NCBI GenBank assembly: GCA_010356995.1
Contig: ML996699.1
Location: 218,999 to 282,998 of the forward strand
Length of the DNA: 64,000 nt
Source of the DNA: Trichodelitschia bisporula
Taxonomy: Eukaryota > Ascomycota > Dothideomycetes > Phaeotrichales > Phaeotrichaceae
Reading direction: 5' to 3'
Shown here: one piece after another, positions 15,663-24,279 of the stretch
Layout of the letters: each line of letters opens with the position of its first letter
Numbering within the stretch: the first letter of the stretch is position 1
Position numbers and translations under genes: made by a program
The notes under the pieces: model-generated
What the model saw: the letters and a program-made list of their open reading frames with translations, nothing else
What the model was told of the DNA's origin: nothing
Database searches by the model: none

Positions 15663-18172
15663 ATGTTTCGCGCGCAGCAAAACGCCTTTGACGCCGTGGT
15701 TGGTGAGTAGCAGGCACCCGTCAAACATGCCGCCAGTTCACGGTATCTTGGAAGGGCTGGTCTGACTGTTACGTGTAGGCAAGGCAACCGACGAGAACCT
15801 CACGAGCGAGAACTGGGAATATATTCTGGTACGACCTTACCCCGCCTTCGATCGAGAGCCGGCGGCTTGCGGCGCAGTACAGCGTAAAGCTGGTTGGGAC
15901 ACTTGCTAAGTGTGATGTGACTGCAGGATGTTTGCGATAAAGTCAGCGCAGAGGATACTGGGTGAGAAGCCCCTTCGGCATGCGACTCGGGTTACAGATC
16001 GAGTTCGATAGCGCCCGGCATGGTTCATTACTGACTTGCGGACTTCGTAGTGCGAAAGATGTCGTGGCCGCCCTTATCAAGCGCCTGGCACATCGGAATG
16101 CCAACGTTCAGTTGTACACTCTCGAGGTACGCTCTGCTGTGGCTGACAAGTTGAGTGTCGACTGACTGAACAGCTCGCCAATGCTCTCTCACAAAACTGC
16201 GGCGTCAAAGTTCACAAGGAACTGGCATCGCGCAGCTTTACCGAAGCGCTCCTGAGGTTGGCTGGAGACAGAGTTTGTACTCCTCCTATGTTCTGGCCCT
16301 AGCTAATCGACGAAGAACACCCACCAGCAGGTCAAGTCTAAGATCCTTGAGCGCATGGAGGAGTGGGCGGAGATGTTCTCCTCCGACCCGGACCTTGGAA
16401 TCATGGAGCAGGCATACATGAGGCTGAAGACGCAGAGTATGGCTCCTTGGATAGGGAGACGTGCCCGCTAACGCAACAAGATCCGAATCTGCACCCACCG
16501 TCGAAACCCGTCAAGACGCTCATTACTGACGCGGACCGCCGACGCGAAGAAGAGGAGCTTCAAATGGCGCTTGCGTTATCCGTTAAAGACCGAGCAACTG
16601 CATCAACGGCTGCATCTACGGCCACCTCCCAACCGCAATCTTCCTACCAGCCCGAATCCTCCCAGGCCCCCCAGCTGGAGCCGCAGCCCACTCACCAAGG
16701 CACCACGGCAGCGACTGTTTCGCGCGTCCGCGCCCTCTACGACTTCCAGCCCTCGGAGCCTGGTGAACTTGCCTTCCGTAAAGGTGACGTCATCGCGGTT
16801 CTCGAATCCGTCTTCAAAGACTGGTGGAAGGGCTCGTTGCGTGGCCAAACGGGTATCTTTCCGCTCAACTATGTGGAAAAGCTACAGGACCCCACTAGGG
16901 AAGAACTGGAGCGCGAGGCGCATATGGAGTCCGAAGTATTCGCCGAGATGAAGAACGTGGAAAAACTACTGGCGTTACTGAGCACTAGCTCGGAACCCGG
17001 TAGGGGGGATGTCCGCGACAACGAAGAAATTACGGTAGGTTTCCCTTCTATTTTTGTGGACGACCTAACAGTCTAGACTTTGTATCATTCAACTCTCGCC
17101 ATCCGGCCTAAGCTCATTGAACTTATTGGGAAGTATTCGCAAAAGAAGGGTAAGGCACTTAGCCCTTAATGCGCAATAGCTCACATCTTTAGATGACTTC
17201 ACGCAGCTTAACGAAAAGTTTATCAAGGCTCGCCGCGATTACGAAAACCTCCTGGAGGCCTCCATGTCTCAGCCGCCACAGCCAACCTATGGGCGACCTG
17301 CTTACACCTATGGTGGGGCTCCAACGACCGCGCAGGCCCCTGGCTATTCTGTAGGCGGTGCATATCCCGCTCAAGCACCAAACCCAGAAGGTCGCTACTT
17401 CTCTCCCGCGCCGCAGGAGCCGAATTATCCACCGCAGAACGCCCCGCAGCCGTTTTATTTCGTCCCCCCGTCACAACAGGCTCAGGGCCAGCCGCCTCGT
17501 CCCTCCTCCAATACTAATGCTTCTAGTGACGACCTCTACGCCAACCCTCCTTCTCGGACAAACACCGATAGTGCCCGTCCGCAAACTATGTACGACACCA
17601 TTCCGGCTGCCGGTGGACTTAGCGCTCCTGGGGCTGCTGCGCCAGCGGCAGGACTCGGTTTGCCGCAGGAGCTGGCAAGCGGCTCCTTTGACAGCCCCAT
17701 CGACAACCGCCACAGCTACGCCGCCCCGCCGAGCCAGCAGTACGGTGGCGCCCCCCCGGCTCAGACGTCCCAACCCTGGCGCCCCTACGGAGATCCCGCC
17801 GCCAACCCCGGCCCTGCCCCGCACTCTCCCTCCTCCCAGTATTCAACCCAGGCGCCATCCGCCATCGGTGCGCTACCCTCGCAGAAGCCCAGCCACCCGC
17901 CAGGCGCCTCGGACCCCTTTTCAGATCCCTACAGCCAGGCCCGGCCCGGTCAAGCGCAGGTGAGGCCACCGACCGGATCTCCGGGCGCAGAGTCGCCGAA
18001 TGCGAAGCCCTCTGGCCCGTATACGGCGTATCAGCAGCTCCCGCCTTCACAGGGCCAGCCTCAGCCTCAGGCACCCGGTTACCAGGCATATGCGCCGGCC
18101 GGCGGTGCGCCGGGGAGGTGGAATGGGGTGCAGGCGGGTGCAGGTCGTGACGAGGAGCAGTATTACCGGTGA
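15663..18172 (+). CDS. HSE1: ESCRT-0 subunit Hse1 (STAM orthologue)
   Basis: Partner of Vps27 on endosomes; binds ubiquitinated cargo for sorting into multivesicular bodies. Nine exons: 15663-15702, 15779-15828, 15927-15961, 16051-16126, 16174-16272, 16316-16436, 16481-17034, 17077-17149, 17193-18172; 675 residues. Domain order is as in the family: VHS domain (about 5-140; ENWEYIL, VCDKVSAED, KDVVAALIKRL), UIM (about 160-178; EEELQMALALSVKD), SH3 (about 219-272; RALYDFQPSEPGELAFRKGD and GIFPLNYVE), a GAT-like helical region spanning exons 7-9, then a long Pro/Gln/Ser-rich tail. Every exon junction preserves both frame and domain continuity. Most introns lie in the VHS part. Confidence 0.96.
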
Positions 18173-18668: not shown

Positions 18669-18740
18669 TCTTCCGTAGTCTAGTGGTCATGATTTCCGCT
18701 TGTCACGCGGACGGCCCGGGTTCGATTCCCGGCGGGAGAG
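18669..18740 (+). tRNA. tRNA-Asp (anticodon GTC)
   Basis: 72 nt, no intron. Acceptor arms TCTTCCG and CGGGAGA pair with one G-T wobble. The anticodon stem TCCGC/GCGGA encloses the loop TTGTCAC with anticodon GTC. The T arm CCGGG-TTCGATT-CCCGG is perfect. Internal promoter boxes are visible: A box (TAGTCTAGTGG) and B box (GGTTCGATTCC). G is the discriminator base. Confidence 0.97.
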
Positions 18741-19133
18741 ATTCTTTTTGCTCTCATCCTTTTCACAAGAGTGCACAAAGTAAACTACTGTGGCTAGATA
18801 TTGCTATGTTTCAATTTTTTGATCTGATATCAACTCTGGGCGTTGTGGTCCTCTGAATTTGTACTGAATGATCCTAGAGATACGGCTCAATTTACAGTAC
18901 CACTGGATCATTAGCCGACAAGGCTTACTCGTTGAGAGCTTTCCCAGCTTCTGTCACGGGAAGTGAACGAACAAGGCTCGGGAGTCTATTCTTCATGCTA
19001 TTAATGCCAACTGCCTCCCGTACGGTTGGAAATCGAGCTACAAACTTTCCTTCCAACCCAGATGAAGCTTGAATTCTCCAGCCCACGAAAGCACATCGCA
19101 GATGCCACCAGTCCCACTTCGTCAATGCAGCCG
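18741..19133. other. Intergenic between tRNA-Asp and the KH-CVNH gene
   Basis: Apart from the T-run terminator I see nothing here. Confidence 0.6.
18745..18749 (+). terminator. RNA polymerase III terminator of tRNA-Asp
   Basis: A run of five T residues starts four bases after the tRNA end, the usual Pol III stop signal. Confidence 0.8.
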
Positions 19134-20588
19134 TTACTGCTCCATGAACACCAACTCCCCATTAACATTCTCGATCCTCTCATCCAACTCCACCTTCGCC
19201 TCCCTCCACCTCCCACTACGATCCCTCAGCAGCGCAACCAGACTCCCGCCCTCAAGACACACCTCCTTCGCACTAGCCATGAAGTTCCCATCCGCGTCCT
19301 CAGGGCCGACCCACGCAAACGTCCCGTCATTATTCGCCAGCCAGCGGTTTAACGAGAGCTCGGACCAGTAGTGCTCTCCTTGCACGCAGCGGCATCTGGC
19401 CGAAAGGGTGCAGTTCCAATTCTGGGACGTCCTGTCCTGGGAGGTGCCGATGCGGATGTCGCGCGAAGTGTGGGAGAAGTTGCCGCGTTTTGGGCCTACG
19501 ACTGGGTCGCTCCCTGGGGCCAGGGCGGGCATGTGAGGTTCGACGATGGGGACTGGGAGCTCGTGGGATGGGGGCTCGGGCTCCTGGGCGAGTGGGACTT
19601 GTCGGACCCCCGCTACATATTGGCGAAGGTAGGCCACGTAATTGGGAGGCGCGGACTCCTGGGAGAGTTCGTTGGGGCGGGGGGGCGCCGTTGCTTGGGG
19701 GGCGGTATTGAGGCCTGCGTTGTCGATAATGTCCATGATCAGCTCCTTAGCATACGCACGGTTGGCCTCGGTGCCAATCAAGTTGATGACGGGACGCAGG
19801 CCATTGATGTCCTCATCCGCCCAAATGATACTGATGCCGCATCCACTGCGTTCCCGGAGGTCTGCGAAGGTCTGACTATCAAGGCCGAGGAGGCCAAAAG
19901 CCCAGTGCGGCACCATGATCTGCTCTTGGTTCTCATCTTCTTGGAGGGGCTGCTGAGCGGCAGCCGGGTTCGCATCACGGGGCGGAGGTTCTGAAGGCGG
20001 GGCGCTGGTGGCGAGCGCCTGGGAGAGTTCGGTGGGATTGGGAGGCGCCGTCGCTTGGGGAAGGGTGTTGATGCGCTCATTGTCGACAATCTCCATAATC
20101 AGCTCCTTAGCAGCCGCACGGTAGGCCACGGGGCCAATAATGTTGATGGGACGTAGGCCATTGTTACTCTTGTGCGCACCAAGGATATTGATGTCGCATC
20201 CACTGCGTTGCTGGAGGTCCGCGATGGTCTGACCGCCACGGCCAACGATGAGGCCAATAGTCCGGTCCGGCACCATCATCTGCTCCTCGCGATCATCTTC
20301 TTGGAGGGGCTGCTGAGCGGCAGCCGGCTTCGCATCACTGGGCTGAGGTTCTGAAGGCGGGACGATAATGAAATTGTCCCGGTTGTTGAGGGGATATGGA
20401 AGCCGAACGGGTAGAGAATAGCCCGTAGCTGCCGGGAATTCGCGCCCTACGTCTTGGTGTCCGGTATACGCGTCGGAATACACGCCGCGGGTGTATGAGC
20501 GAAAGCCATGTGGGACGGCGGGCTGGGGTGCTGGGTCCGAAGCGCTAGTTGCGTCGACCGACGGACTAGGCGTAGGCTTCATGACCAT
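19134..20588 (-). CDS. Protein with two KH-like domains and a C-terminal cyanovirin-N (CVNH) domain
   Basis: Single exon, 484 residues, starting MVMKPTPSPS. Residues 1-100 are Pro/Ala-rich without a signal peptide. KH1 (about 101-172) has the RNA-binding loop GRGG at 116-119 in the context TIGLIVGRGGQTIADL, plus the helix RAAAKELIMEIVDN. KH2 (about 221-292) is a copy of it, offset by exactly 120 residues, in which the loop has decayed to GLDS. Residues 369-483 match the CVNH pattern: GNFSHTSRDIRI, NCTLSARC, LSLNRWLANNDGTFAW, GNFMASAKEVCLEGGSLVALL, WREAKVELDERIENVNGEL. KH domains bind single-stranded nucleic acid; fungal CVNH domains bind mannose-type glycans. Lack of a signal peptide suggests the cytosol or nucleus. 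The function of the combination is unknown to me. Domain calls rest on remembered patterns. Confidence 0.85.
   Translation of the reverse strand: MVMKPTPSPSVDATSASDPAPQPAVPHGFRSYTRGVYSDAYTGHQDVGREFPAATGYSLPVRLPYPLNNRDNFIIVPPSEPQPSDAKPAAAQQPLQEDDREEQMMVPDRTIGLIVGRGGQTIADLQQRSGCDINILGAHKSNNGLRPINIIGPVAYRAAAKELIMEIVDNERINTLPQATAPPNPTELSQALATSAPPSEPPPRDANPAAAQQPLQEDENQEQIMVPHWAFGLLGLDSQTFADLRERSGCGISIIWADEDINGLRPVINLIGTEANRAYAKELIMDIIDNAGLNTAPQATAPPRPNELSQESAPPNYVAYLRQYVAGVRQVPLAQEPEPPSHELPVPIVEPHMPALAPGSDPVVGPKRGNFSHTSRDIRIGTSQDRTSQNWNCTLSARCRCVQGEHYWSELSLNRWLANNDGTFAWVGPEDADGNFMASAKEVCLEGGSLVALLRDRSGRWREAKVELDERIENVNGELVFMEQ
19638..20357 (-). repeat. In-frame 360-bp tandem duplication (two copies) within the KH-CVNH gene
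   Basis: Identical landmarks recur exactly 360 bp apart: TTGGAGGGGCTGCTGAGCGG at 19941 and 20301, and AGCTCCTTAG at 19741 and 20101. Each unit carries a linker (AAAQQPLQED) and a KH domain. One codon lost in the loop and one gained 30 codons later keep the period at 120 codons. Unit boundaries are approximate. Confidence 0.9.
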
Positions 20589-20659
20589 TTTGAAGGCGTG
20601 GAGGAGTGCAGTTTGGAGTTCAGATGGTAGACAGGGCGAACAACCATGGGGGCCTGGCT

Positions 20660-20741
20660 GCTGGTATTAAGTATTGGCGGTGGTGAGGGATCCGGATCCT
20701 GCTGGTATTAAGTACTGGCGGTGGTGAGGGATCTGGATCCT
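20660..20741. repeat. 41-bp tandem duplication upstream of the KH-CVNH gene
   Basis: Two adjacent 41-bp copies (20660-20700, 20701-20741), beginning GCTGGTATTAAGTA, differ at only two positions, both C/T. The rest of the interval 20589-20890 shows no gene; it is the 3' flank of the large membrane protein gene and the promoter of the KH-CVNH gene. Confidence 0.9.
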
Positions 20742-20890: not shown

Positions 20891-23800
20891 CTATTCATGT
20901 TTGTTCTTCGCACTATCCTGCGAAGTAGATTGCATGATTGTCGATACCGTATCATCCCTCGACGGCTCTAAGATGCCGCCGGTGATGTGGAACGAAAAGT
21001 CGAGCTCGCCAACCAATTCTTTAACATTTCTACCTTGCTCAGTTTCATCCAGTTTCCAGGACGCGAAACCTACGTGAGTAAGACCTCAAGGTCGGAAATG
21101 ATAGACTGCGTCGAAATCTGGGTCACTGCAAAGGCAGCGTACCCGGGCTCATGAATGTGCCGCACGCTCAAGATGTCGCGGTCTAAAGCCTCCATCTTCG
21201 ATGTGAGCCCATACGGCGCCGGCGCGCGGAGATATGGCGGAAGTGGTTGGGCGCTGATGATGCTGGAGGAGAGAATGGAGAGGAGGGAGGTGATTTCATG
21301 AGAGGTAGGACGAACGGAAGACATGACTCCCTGGAAGTCGCGGCACCACTGTGACTTGCGGAACTCTGCAGATGCCAGGAAAGTGCTGGAGGAGTAGCCC
21401 ATGAGAGTCGTGTAGCTTGCAATGCTGTCAAGAAGTCAGCTCTGTCCGCCTGCAGACCCGATGTACATACTTTTCTGCTGCGGTGATGATGGCGTCATAT
21501 CTTGCCTTAGGAAATTTACCACCTAGCATCAGCTCCCATTTTGTCATCTGAGAATACATCTTCAGGCGAGAGATGAGGATCATCACTTTAGAATAGACCT
21601 TAAGTCGGGCCGCGTCCAGGGGCCTGAGGGAATTGTTCTCCGGGTCCTCCAGAATCAACTCGGCCGTATCCTGTTGAATTCTCGACTGAATGGTTTCATG
21701 GATTATCGAATAGTAGCTTGCCAGGAGGTAAAGCGTTGCTCCTACGTCCTTTCGCAGCTGCGAGTGCTCAGTGATGGGGTAAGGCAGCATCGTCCAGATG
21801 AAGGCAACGAAGAGACCGCCAGCCACCGTGGCAAGGCGGAAGACCCCAATCAGCGTGATCGAGAAATACTTCTGGCCGTTGGCAGTTATCGCAGCAACGC
21901 CAATCTTCCTGACTTCCAGTTCGTACCCGATGATCAAGACGCTAGTCACGATGGATACCATACCGACGCTGACGAGCTGCGGCATTTTCAGCAGTACGTA
22001 TATTGCAAGGCTGACAAAAAACCAAAGGAAGACGAGGATGCCAGCTGTTTGCCCATCTGGGATGTAGTAGATCAGGAACGAAGCGAGCATGGCGATGACG
22101 GTTCCGATGACCCGGAGGACGTAACTGAAGAGACTCTGCCCAGCGGTTGGTGCCATTGAAATTGCCACCATAATCATGGACCAGAGGAGACGATTTTCAA
22201 GGAAGAAAGTCTGCGTGTCATGCAGGTATGAGATGATCCCAATGGAAAGCGTGGCCAGGGCAACCCGAAAGCCAAATGCGGACTCCGAAGACCGCAAGCC
22301 CGCCGCGAGGGCACGGAGGAATTCTCCTATCCGTTCGACTATGTTTTGAGGTGGAAGGTGTTCCGGATCCCGACGGGCGGAGTATGCTTGTCCCATGGCA
22401 ACTACTTTGTCGGACTCGCGAAAGCGCTCGTCATAGCTATCGCCATCGTCCCGAGAGTAAAACGTGCTGATTATCCATTTCCGGAGGCGCTTTGCTCCCG
22501 GTAAGATGAGGTGGCTTCGCGAAAGCTTTCCACTATCCATGAGGCCGTCGGCGAAATGAACCATATCAAGAACGGCCAGTCCAGTTTTGAACATGAGGTA
22601 CTCCAACTGGAGATGTCAGCAAGAGTACCAGAACTTAGCATCCACACTCACGTATAGGAGGACATAAAGCTGTCGCTGGTGGCGCTCCGGCCCATGCGTG
22701 AACCAGGTGATGTCAAAGTTGTCGATACCGAACCGAGGCTCGTTCTCATAGACCTCCTCTTCCACCTTCAAGCCCCTGCGCTGGCACCATTCATCAAGTG
22801 CAACGTTTTGGTCCTCCTTGAATTGCTTGATGATCTGATCCATGTACGCCGCAAATCCAGTATCTCCGGGCCTCGTCACATCTCCCTCAGCCTCAACGTC
22901 TGACTTCCGAGGCCGTGGAAGCATTGAAAACTGCAGCATGATGTGCTCTAAGCCTTCCTGCACGGCCTCAGTGATGGCCGTAAAAGAGTTGTGAAGGAGC
23001 TTCATATTGTCGGACCACTCCGTGGTAAGCCGCCGTCTCTTTTCTTCCTCGACTGGATCTAAGCCCTCCTCAACATTATGCTCCGTCCAGTCATTCGCTG
23101 CAGCGATCCTTTGGAAGATGTCCGTCACGGCACCCAACCCCAGAACCGGAATCATGATCTGGCGGGTCAATTTGTTCATTTCTTTGAGATCGTCAGGGCC
23201 CAGCCTGCCCCAGGCAATCTCACGCTTTGCGAACGGCAAATCGCCTTGGAGCTTGCTGTGCAAACCCATCATGGCGCCGACGGCAGCTTTGACGGCTTTA
23301 GCTTCTGGGTGCAGGCTGCTTCCCCTGTCATCGACTGTGATGTTCTTGGTGAAATCGCTCGGCTTTTCGAGACTTTGTAGGTACGATCTTTGGGTCTCGA
23401 CGCATTCCTGTAACGATTTCAGGAACCCCGAAAATTCCATCATCACGATCTTGCGGGAGCTCGTCGGGAATACGACGAAATGGACTCCGGTGGCGATGGC
23501 GAAGCCAGTGAGGAAGCAGTAGAGAATCTTCAGGATGAACCGAATCCCAGCGGTCATGTCCTGTAGCAGGGAGGAATAGATGCTGATGACGATGACGAAA
23601 ATGGAATAGATGATGGCAGGTACAACGAGTTGCGGACTGCGAGCTCGGAGGGAATTGATGACATAGACCTGCATGAACATCCAGATTCCAGACACTGCTG
23701 AAGCAGACGAGTTGTACGTCGTGAATCCCGTTGCCGTTCGGGGGGGTGGTGGTTCACCTGAATGCTTCCGCGCCTGCGTCACGCAGTAGACAGAGAGCAG

Positions 23801-24279
23801 CCCAACGGCCGCCGCTAGACATGCAGTGAAAGCGCTGAGCAGAGTGTTCTGGACAAATTTCGCTCGTGGTTGGACACACATAGCGATGACGGAGATGATG
23901 GCGACTAAGTATCCGAAATTGCCATAAAACTGCGCAACTGTAGTCGATTGATACCTTGAATGATAAGTCCAAGTTTGGCAGAAGATCTCAGAGTAGCACT
24001 TACATTGCTAGGGCAATGGTTGGTGGTACGCCTCCCCTACGGCTATCAGAAGAGTTCGGTAACAAGTTAAATCGTCACTTACTTGGCCATGAGAAGTAGC
24101 AAAGGAACACTGAGACCCAAACCATTCCAGATGGCCGTCGCCTTTTTGGTGATCACATTATCCAAACGCTTTTTCACTGATGGCTTTGTCCGACTTCTGG
24201 TCAAGGTGATATTCTGGCCAATGCCCAATGGAACATCGGCCGCCAGGGAAGGAACCTGGTGAAGAGGATCCGAAGCCAT
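20891..24279 (-). CDS. Large multi-pass membrane protein, DUF2421 / BRE4 / ArAE-like
   Basis: Member of the fungal FUSC-like family (aromatic acid exporter or brefeldin-sensitivity type; substrate unknown). Six exons in gene order: 24083-24279, 24004-24036, 22652-23954, 21471-22606, 21074-21424, 20891-21029; about 1052 residues. Hydrophobic blocks flank a long soluble middle region: an N-terminal set from LGLSVPLLLLMAK through AIISVIAMCVQ to ILYCFLTGFAIATGVHFVVF, and a second set in exon 4 (MIMVAISMAPTAGQSLFSYVL, VFLWFFVSLAIYVLL, LATVAGGLFVAFIW). The conserved HEPGYAAFAVTQIST lies in exon 5. Exon 2 is only 33 nt. The last exon is inferred: without splicing, exon 5 runs into TAG at 21070. A 44-nt intron with a GTAGGT donor keeps a 46-codon frame open to a TAG at 20891. 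Confidence 0.88.

Follow-up and report, generated by a model that had tools for sequence, protein, structure and literature searches.

A probably young chimeric gene in Trichodelitschia bisporula joins KH cassettes related to a resident three-KH gene to a CVNH domain

One reading frame in the genome of the dothideomycete fungus Trichodelitschia bisporula appears to couple RNA-binding KH units to a cyanovirin-N homolog (CVNH) domain, which raises the question of whether such a protein is made, where its parts came from and whether selection keeps it. The frame lies in a 64,000-nt stretch (hereinafter the window; contig ML996699.1 of assembly GCA_010356995.1) and had been described in a first-pass annotation, made from the letters alone, as uninterrupted at 19134-20588. 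That description is right in its coordinates and in its length of 484 codons plus stop; the strand, which had not been named, is the minus strand, a single ORF running from 20588 to 19134, and the plus strand read from 19134 contains stops. Upstream of the fusion ATG about 20 further codons remain open without a second ATG. The frame is readable without introns, and a loose motif scan of the gene returned seven intron-like candidates; five of these would break the frame, but removal of either of the other two (129 and 147 nt) would leave it intact, so an intron is possible. The features of the locus are collected in Table 1.

Table 1 Features of the fusion locus (positions in the window).
Feature	Positions	Strand	Evidence
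Whole frame: tail, KH cassette A, KH cassette B, Pro-rich linker, CVNH	19134..20588	-	ORF, Pfam, codon usage
N-terminal tail, residues 1-69	20382..20588	-	ATG context TTCAAAATGG, A at -3, G at +4
KH cassette A, 305 nt	20077..20381	-	76% to linker plus central KH domain of the three-KH gene on C1, gapless
KH1 domain, residues 102-166	20091..20285	-	GXXG present (GRGG), 55.2 bits alone
KH cassette B	19721..20012	-	75% to the C1 stretch matched by cassette A; one 3-nt deletion, one 3-nt insertion
KH2 unit, residues 222-286	19731..19925	-	GXXG lost, below Pfam cut-off alone
360-bp tandem duplication behind both KH units	19658..20361	.	2.0 copies, 81% matches
Pro-rich linker KH2-CVNH, residues 287-370	19479..19730	-	23% proline in residues 297-369
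CVNH domain, residues 371-480	19149..19478	-	All 102 profile positions, no LysM
C17-shared stretch (69%)	19065..19353	-	CVNH from residue 413 onwards (its final three-fifths) and 69 nt after the stop codon

The surroundings of the gene hold several further features. Two 41-bp direct repeats (95%) at 20658-20739, just upstream of the fusion start codon, represent a second local tandem duplication. A tRNA-Asp (GTC) gene occupies 18669-18740 on the plus strand, 393 nt past the fusion stop codon. Adjoining frames at 21428-23881 on the minus strand carry FUSC_2 and ArAE_2_N (putative ER transporter) domains, and a plus-strand frame at 16363-17076 carries an SH3 domain together with a ubiquitin-interaction motif that scores below its own cut-off, a pairing which we take to resemble the Hse1/STAM type.

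Profile searches place both folds named in the first-pass annotation well above their cut-offs. CVNH (PF08881) scores 73.6 bits against a cut-off of 24.5 (E 2.5e-20), with profile positions 1-102 of 102 aligned at residues 371-480, so the C-terminal part belongs to this family by profile. KH_1 (PF00013) scores 65.7 bits against 21.5 (E 3.2e-18) over two stretches, the better at residues 102-166, and beyond these two families the Pfam scan of the fusion protein yields zero matches above cut-off. Among PDB sequences, the CVNH part matches the cyanovirin-N homolog 2kjl (E 2.4e-10) and the MoCVNH3 variant 5c8o (E 5.7e-9), and the KH part matches a KH domain of FUBP2 (2jvz, E 3.5e-9); the KH relatives of the N-terminal part are FUBP/KHSRP, NOVA, IGF2BP and PCBP proteins. 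AlphaFold, run on the fusion protein alone without relatives, returned an unusable model with a mean pLDDT of 35.

The two KH-like domains that had been proposed are two KH-derived units, but they are not equal, only the first being intact. KH1 retains the GXXG loop as GRGG and, with 55.2 bits on its own, qualifies as a type I KH domain on both loop and profile. KH2 scored alone reaches 19.7 bits, short of the 21.5-bit cut-off, qualifies on neither count and is absent from the KH_1 matches listed for the genome, of which there are at least 21. Its loop has a GLDS stretch, one codon shorter, in place of the GRGG of KH1, and the alignment to the parent gene described below reveals a one-codon deletion at the GXXG region, a later one-codon insertion and radical changes round the loop. 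The GXXG loop is required for RNA binding by KH domains. KH1 is functional-looking, and RNA binding is predicted for it from its sequence.

To judge translation we used codon usage and start context. The whole ORF scores 0.195 in its own frame, the best of six, with the next at 0.08 (antisense), and lies inside the range of 0.154-0.297 spanned by nine window ORFs used for training, which were hand-picked from 18 listed, one of them shortened, and scored without leave-out. The CVNH part scores 0.21 in frame versus -0.02 for the best other frame, and the two cassettes exceed their antisense scores by small margins (0.275 vs 0.24 and 0.24 vs 0.17); the N-terminal tail is weak (0.03) and residues 313-369 of the linker are ambiguous (0.09 in frame vs 0.12 antisense). 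The measure is coarse, since the parent exon on C1 itself scores only 0.06. The start codon M1 has A at -3 and G at +4, whereas the internal M353 has C at both positions (CAC ATG C). Codon usage and start context together lean towards a translated gene.

The same data bear on whether the locus is one gene or two. If an upstream KH piece were followed by a stand-alone CVNH gene starting in the linker at Met353, the shared frame would be accidental; M353 lies 18 residues ahead of the CVNH domain, solved single-domain cyanovirin-N homolog chains are small at 106-114 residues (2jzk, 2l2f, 2kjl and 2jzl), and the linker coding score is ambiguous. We consider such an arrangement quite unlikely, given the poor context of M353 compared with that of M1 and a proline share in the linker before CVNH (0.23) that resembles those of the other linkers of the fusion protein (0.19 and 0.21).

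The relatives of the KH units were sought in the 25.65-Mb genome (30 contigs), for which the copy counts of CVNH (3) and KH_1 (21) are lower bounds. Residues 70-188 find their best relative at C1:320539-320889 (58% identity, E 4.7e-34), with the next KH locus outside the fusion gene itself at E 1.5e-5; cassette A alone matches C1 at E 2.0e-27, with the next such locus at E 7.3e-6. The C1 stretch corresponds to the second of three KH stretches in a single frame, and the best PDB match of that frame is FUBP2. At the DNA level, cassette A is 76% identical to the C1 gene over 305 nt with no gaps and cassette B 75% identical, both indels of the latter being whole codons. Homology covers the parent linker before the KH and probably part of the linker after it, suggesting that a linker-KH-linker segment was copied rather than a KH gene. 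A tandem duplication (360-bp unit, 2.0 copies, 81% matches) in turn relates cassette A to cassette B. By DNA alignment, then, the KH part is related to the middle KH, with its flanking linkers, of a resident FUBP/KHSRP-like gene that has three KH stretches, and we infer that this gene was the source of the cassettes. Synonymous divergence is 0.65-0.72 between the cassettes and the parent and 0.21 between cassettes A and B; the KH-CVNH chimera is probably young and made by segmental copying. The N-terminal tail (residues 1-69) has no second copy that we could find in the genome, and DNA searches of the genome with the CVNH-linker and N-terminal stretches returned the window only, a weak result in that the CVNH-linker search also missed the C17 copy described next.

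CVNH sequences occur in at least three places in the genome, complete in the window and on C23 and partial on C17, and among these three KH_1 adjoins only the window locus. The C17 sequence (L032 4757-5051) sits in a 194-codon open frame with an abrupt mid-domain start and resembles both the window CVNH and the flank 3' of it: identity is 69% across the final three-fifths of the domain and a further 69 nt after the stop codon, and the C17 sequence, which lacks the beginning of the domain, scores 28.8 bits over profile positions 30-99 of 102. It is no more than a possible CVNH parent, because the first two-fifths of the domain are missing and the C17 stretch may itself derive from the fusion gene or from a common ancestor. 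At sites that differ between the window and C17, the C23 CVNH agrees with the window at six and with C17 at one. Farther afield, none of 16 pattern matches in viral contigs was confirmed as a fusion relative, and none of 108 in prokaryote contigs was confirmed with a two-row CVNH alignment, which detects near relatives only.

Of the cyanovirin-N (CV-N) glycan contacts considered, the fusion CVNH is identical at four of 11 in site B (N42, D44, N53 and R76) and at two of six aligned contacts in site A (N93 and G96), the N-terminal site-A contacts falling outside the alignment. Site B may still bind a glycan.

Rates of change within the gene were estimated as dN/dS (Nei-Gojobori, rough values on 67-119 codons). 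Against the parent, cassette A gives 0.41 (95% interval 0.25-0.64) and cassette B 0.37, and the KH1 domain alone 0.26 (0.12-0.47), comparisons that include the parent's own branch. Cassette A against cassette B gives 0.95 (0.56-1.85), or 1.07 (0.52-2.65) for the KH parts alone, and the window CVNH against C17 gives 1.02 (0.48-2.41). Parent-polarised parsimony assigns 13:4 nonsynonymous to synonymous changes to cassette A, 21:4 to cassette B and 17:24 to stem plus parent, a count that drops eight three-state sites and all gapped codons and that mixes the parent branch with the stem in the last figure. The pooled cassette branches (34:8) differ from stem plus parent (Fisher P 2.9e-4) yet not from a simulated neutral ratio of 3:1 (P 0.48). 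Thus, with a dN/dS of 0.95 and a neutral-like 34:8, no amino-acid constraint is detectable on the KH units since the tandem duplication, and the significant but neutral-like shift implies that constraint was relaxed, or offset by positive selection, after that event.

Positive selection as the driver of the fast change, perhaps through an arms race in which a mycovirus or some other partner took part and KH2 was reshaped to bind a new ligand, would account for the higher nonsynonymous share on the cassette branches. We regard it as highly improbable, because relaxation explains a ratio no higher than the neutral one equally well and no partner is known.

A weightier challenge, which we rate as a substantial possibility if a less probable one than the reading favoured below, is that segmental copying joined the KH cassettes to a CVNH gene to form a transient chimera, a product without a selected role whose frame is drifting towards loss. 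In its favour, both KH units have changed near-neutrally since the duplication, KH2 is already degenerate, and C17 carries a truncated relative of the CVNH stretch. Against this, the 484 codons contain neither a stop nor a frame-breaking indel, the KH1 and CVNH profiles are well preserved, and codon usage is coding-like. For the whole frame, the chance of staying intact is 0.22 if 50 neutral changes are assumed, falling to 0.048 with 105 and to 0.007 with 200, and the chance of no stop under neutrality in the two KH units is 0.39; as proof of constraint, the open frame is suggestive but not decisive. Given the near-neutral change in both KH units, a selected function of the fusion is putative, and judged from these alignments the post-duplication rates count against a firmly conserved one.

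The combination itself has few points of comparison. The first-pass annotation knew of no KH-CVNH combination, and a literature search covering few subscription papers found no paper that names CVNH or cyanovirin together with a KH domain, and none on a fungal fusion of an RNA-binding KH domain with a lectin domain. The fusion shares the full profile with other CVNH proteins (PF08881) and has cyanovirin-N, the cyanovirin-N homolog and the MoCVNH3 variant as PDB relatives, but differs from CVNH proteins in having the domain C-terminal to KH units, from MoCVNH3 in a 10-residue stretch near the start of its CVNH that MoCVNH3 lacks, and from CV-N in that most of the contact residues considered are changed. 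With MoCVNH-LysM (type III CVNH, 2l9y) it shares a CVNH and a second ligand-binding domain in one protein. There, LysM is inserted inside CVNH (PMC4392113), whereas the partner in the fusion is an RNA-binding fold ahead of CVNH; a Pfam scan at E<=1 finds no LysM, so the protein is not a type III CVNH. The FUBP/KHSRP-type multi-KH proteins are exemplified by the resident C1 gene, to whose middle KH and linkers the cassettes are related, and this gene and the fusion both match FUBP2 2jvz; unlike that gene, the fusion represents one of the three parent KH domains, in two copies, and adds CVNH. With one intact KH, as opposed to several in a row among the three KH stretches of the parent, it does not belong to the FUBP/KHSRP type. 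Other reports describe the CVN fold in fungal lectins (PMC6359319) and two CVNH genes among Neurospora lineage-specific genes (PMC10684091).

The annotation also saw no signal peptide, and a Kyte-Doolittle scan agrees: the fusion protein has no hydrophobic N-terminal stretch, the best 11-residue mean near the N-terminus being 0.73. An intracellular location is presumed on this ground. Secretion signals were absent from the fungal CVNHs of earlier surveys, which recognised only three architectures (PMC4632110), so the missing signal peptide, a feature shared with those proteins, is not odd; more architectures have since been found, including one with a signal peptide, SsCVNH (PMC4632110). As to the self/non-self sensor and stress roles that the annotation suggested, the present evidence weighs on neither side.

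Taken together, we tentatively favour, short of an even chance, a young chimeric protein-coding gene whose most likely present role is that of an RNA-anchored CVNH adaptor under weak constraint. Translation would begin at the start codon of the frame itself and yield a single intracellular KH-KH-CVNH protein. KH1, which keeps its RNA-binding loop, would still be able to hold short single-stranded RNA, and KH2, having lost the loop, would serve only as a spacer. The CVNH fold, if kept as its profile suggests, may display a surface for a glycan or protein ligand and be anchored to RNA by KH1; with KH1 sitting on Pro-rich linkers, the simplest model would be a CVNH tethered to RNA. This adaptor reading is favoured by a C1 match far above those of other KH loci, the 360-bp tandem unit, the whole-codon indels, the in-frame codon usage, the M1 context, the full CVNH profile, the six-to-one agreement of C23 and the dN/dS values of cassette A and KH1 against the parent. 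It is weakened by the dN/dS values near one for cassette A against B and for CVNH against C17, the possible intron, the coarseness of the coding measure, the few CV-N contacts kept and the chance of an open frame. A bolder version, in which a newborn RNA-tethered lectin-fold protein arose in one fungal lineage out of a CVNH gene and a copy of a KH segment, and is expressed and selected, its KH2 remodelled under positive selection, we hold to be unlikely.

Because the likely KH source can be traced within this genome and the fusion is fairly young, the locus allows direct tests of how a fusion gene is born, begins to decay and may be rescued. The chimera also raises the question of which ligand an intracellular cyanovirin fold would have when it is tied to RNA.
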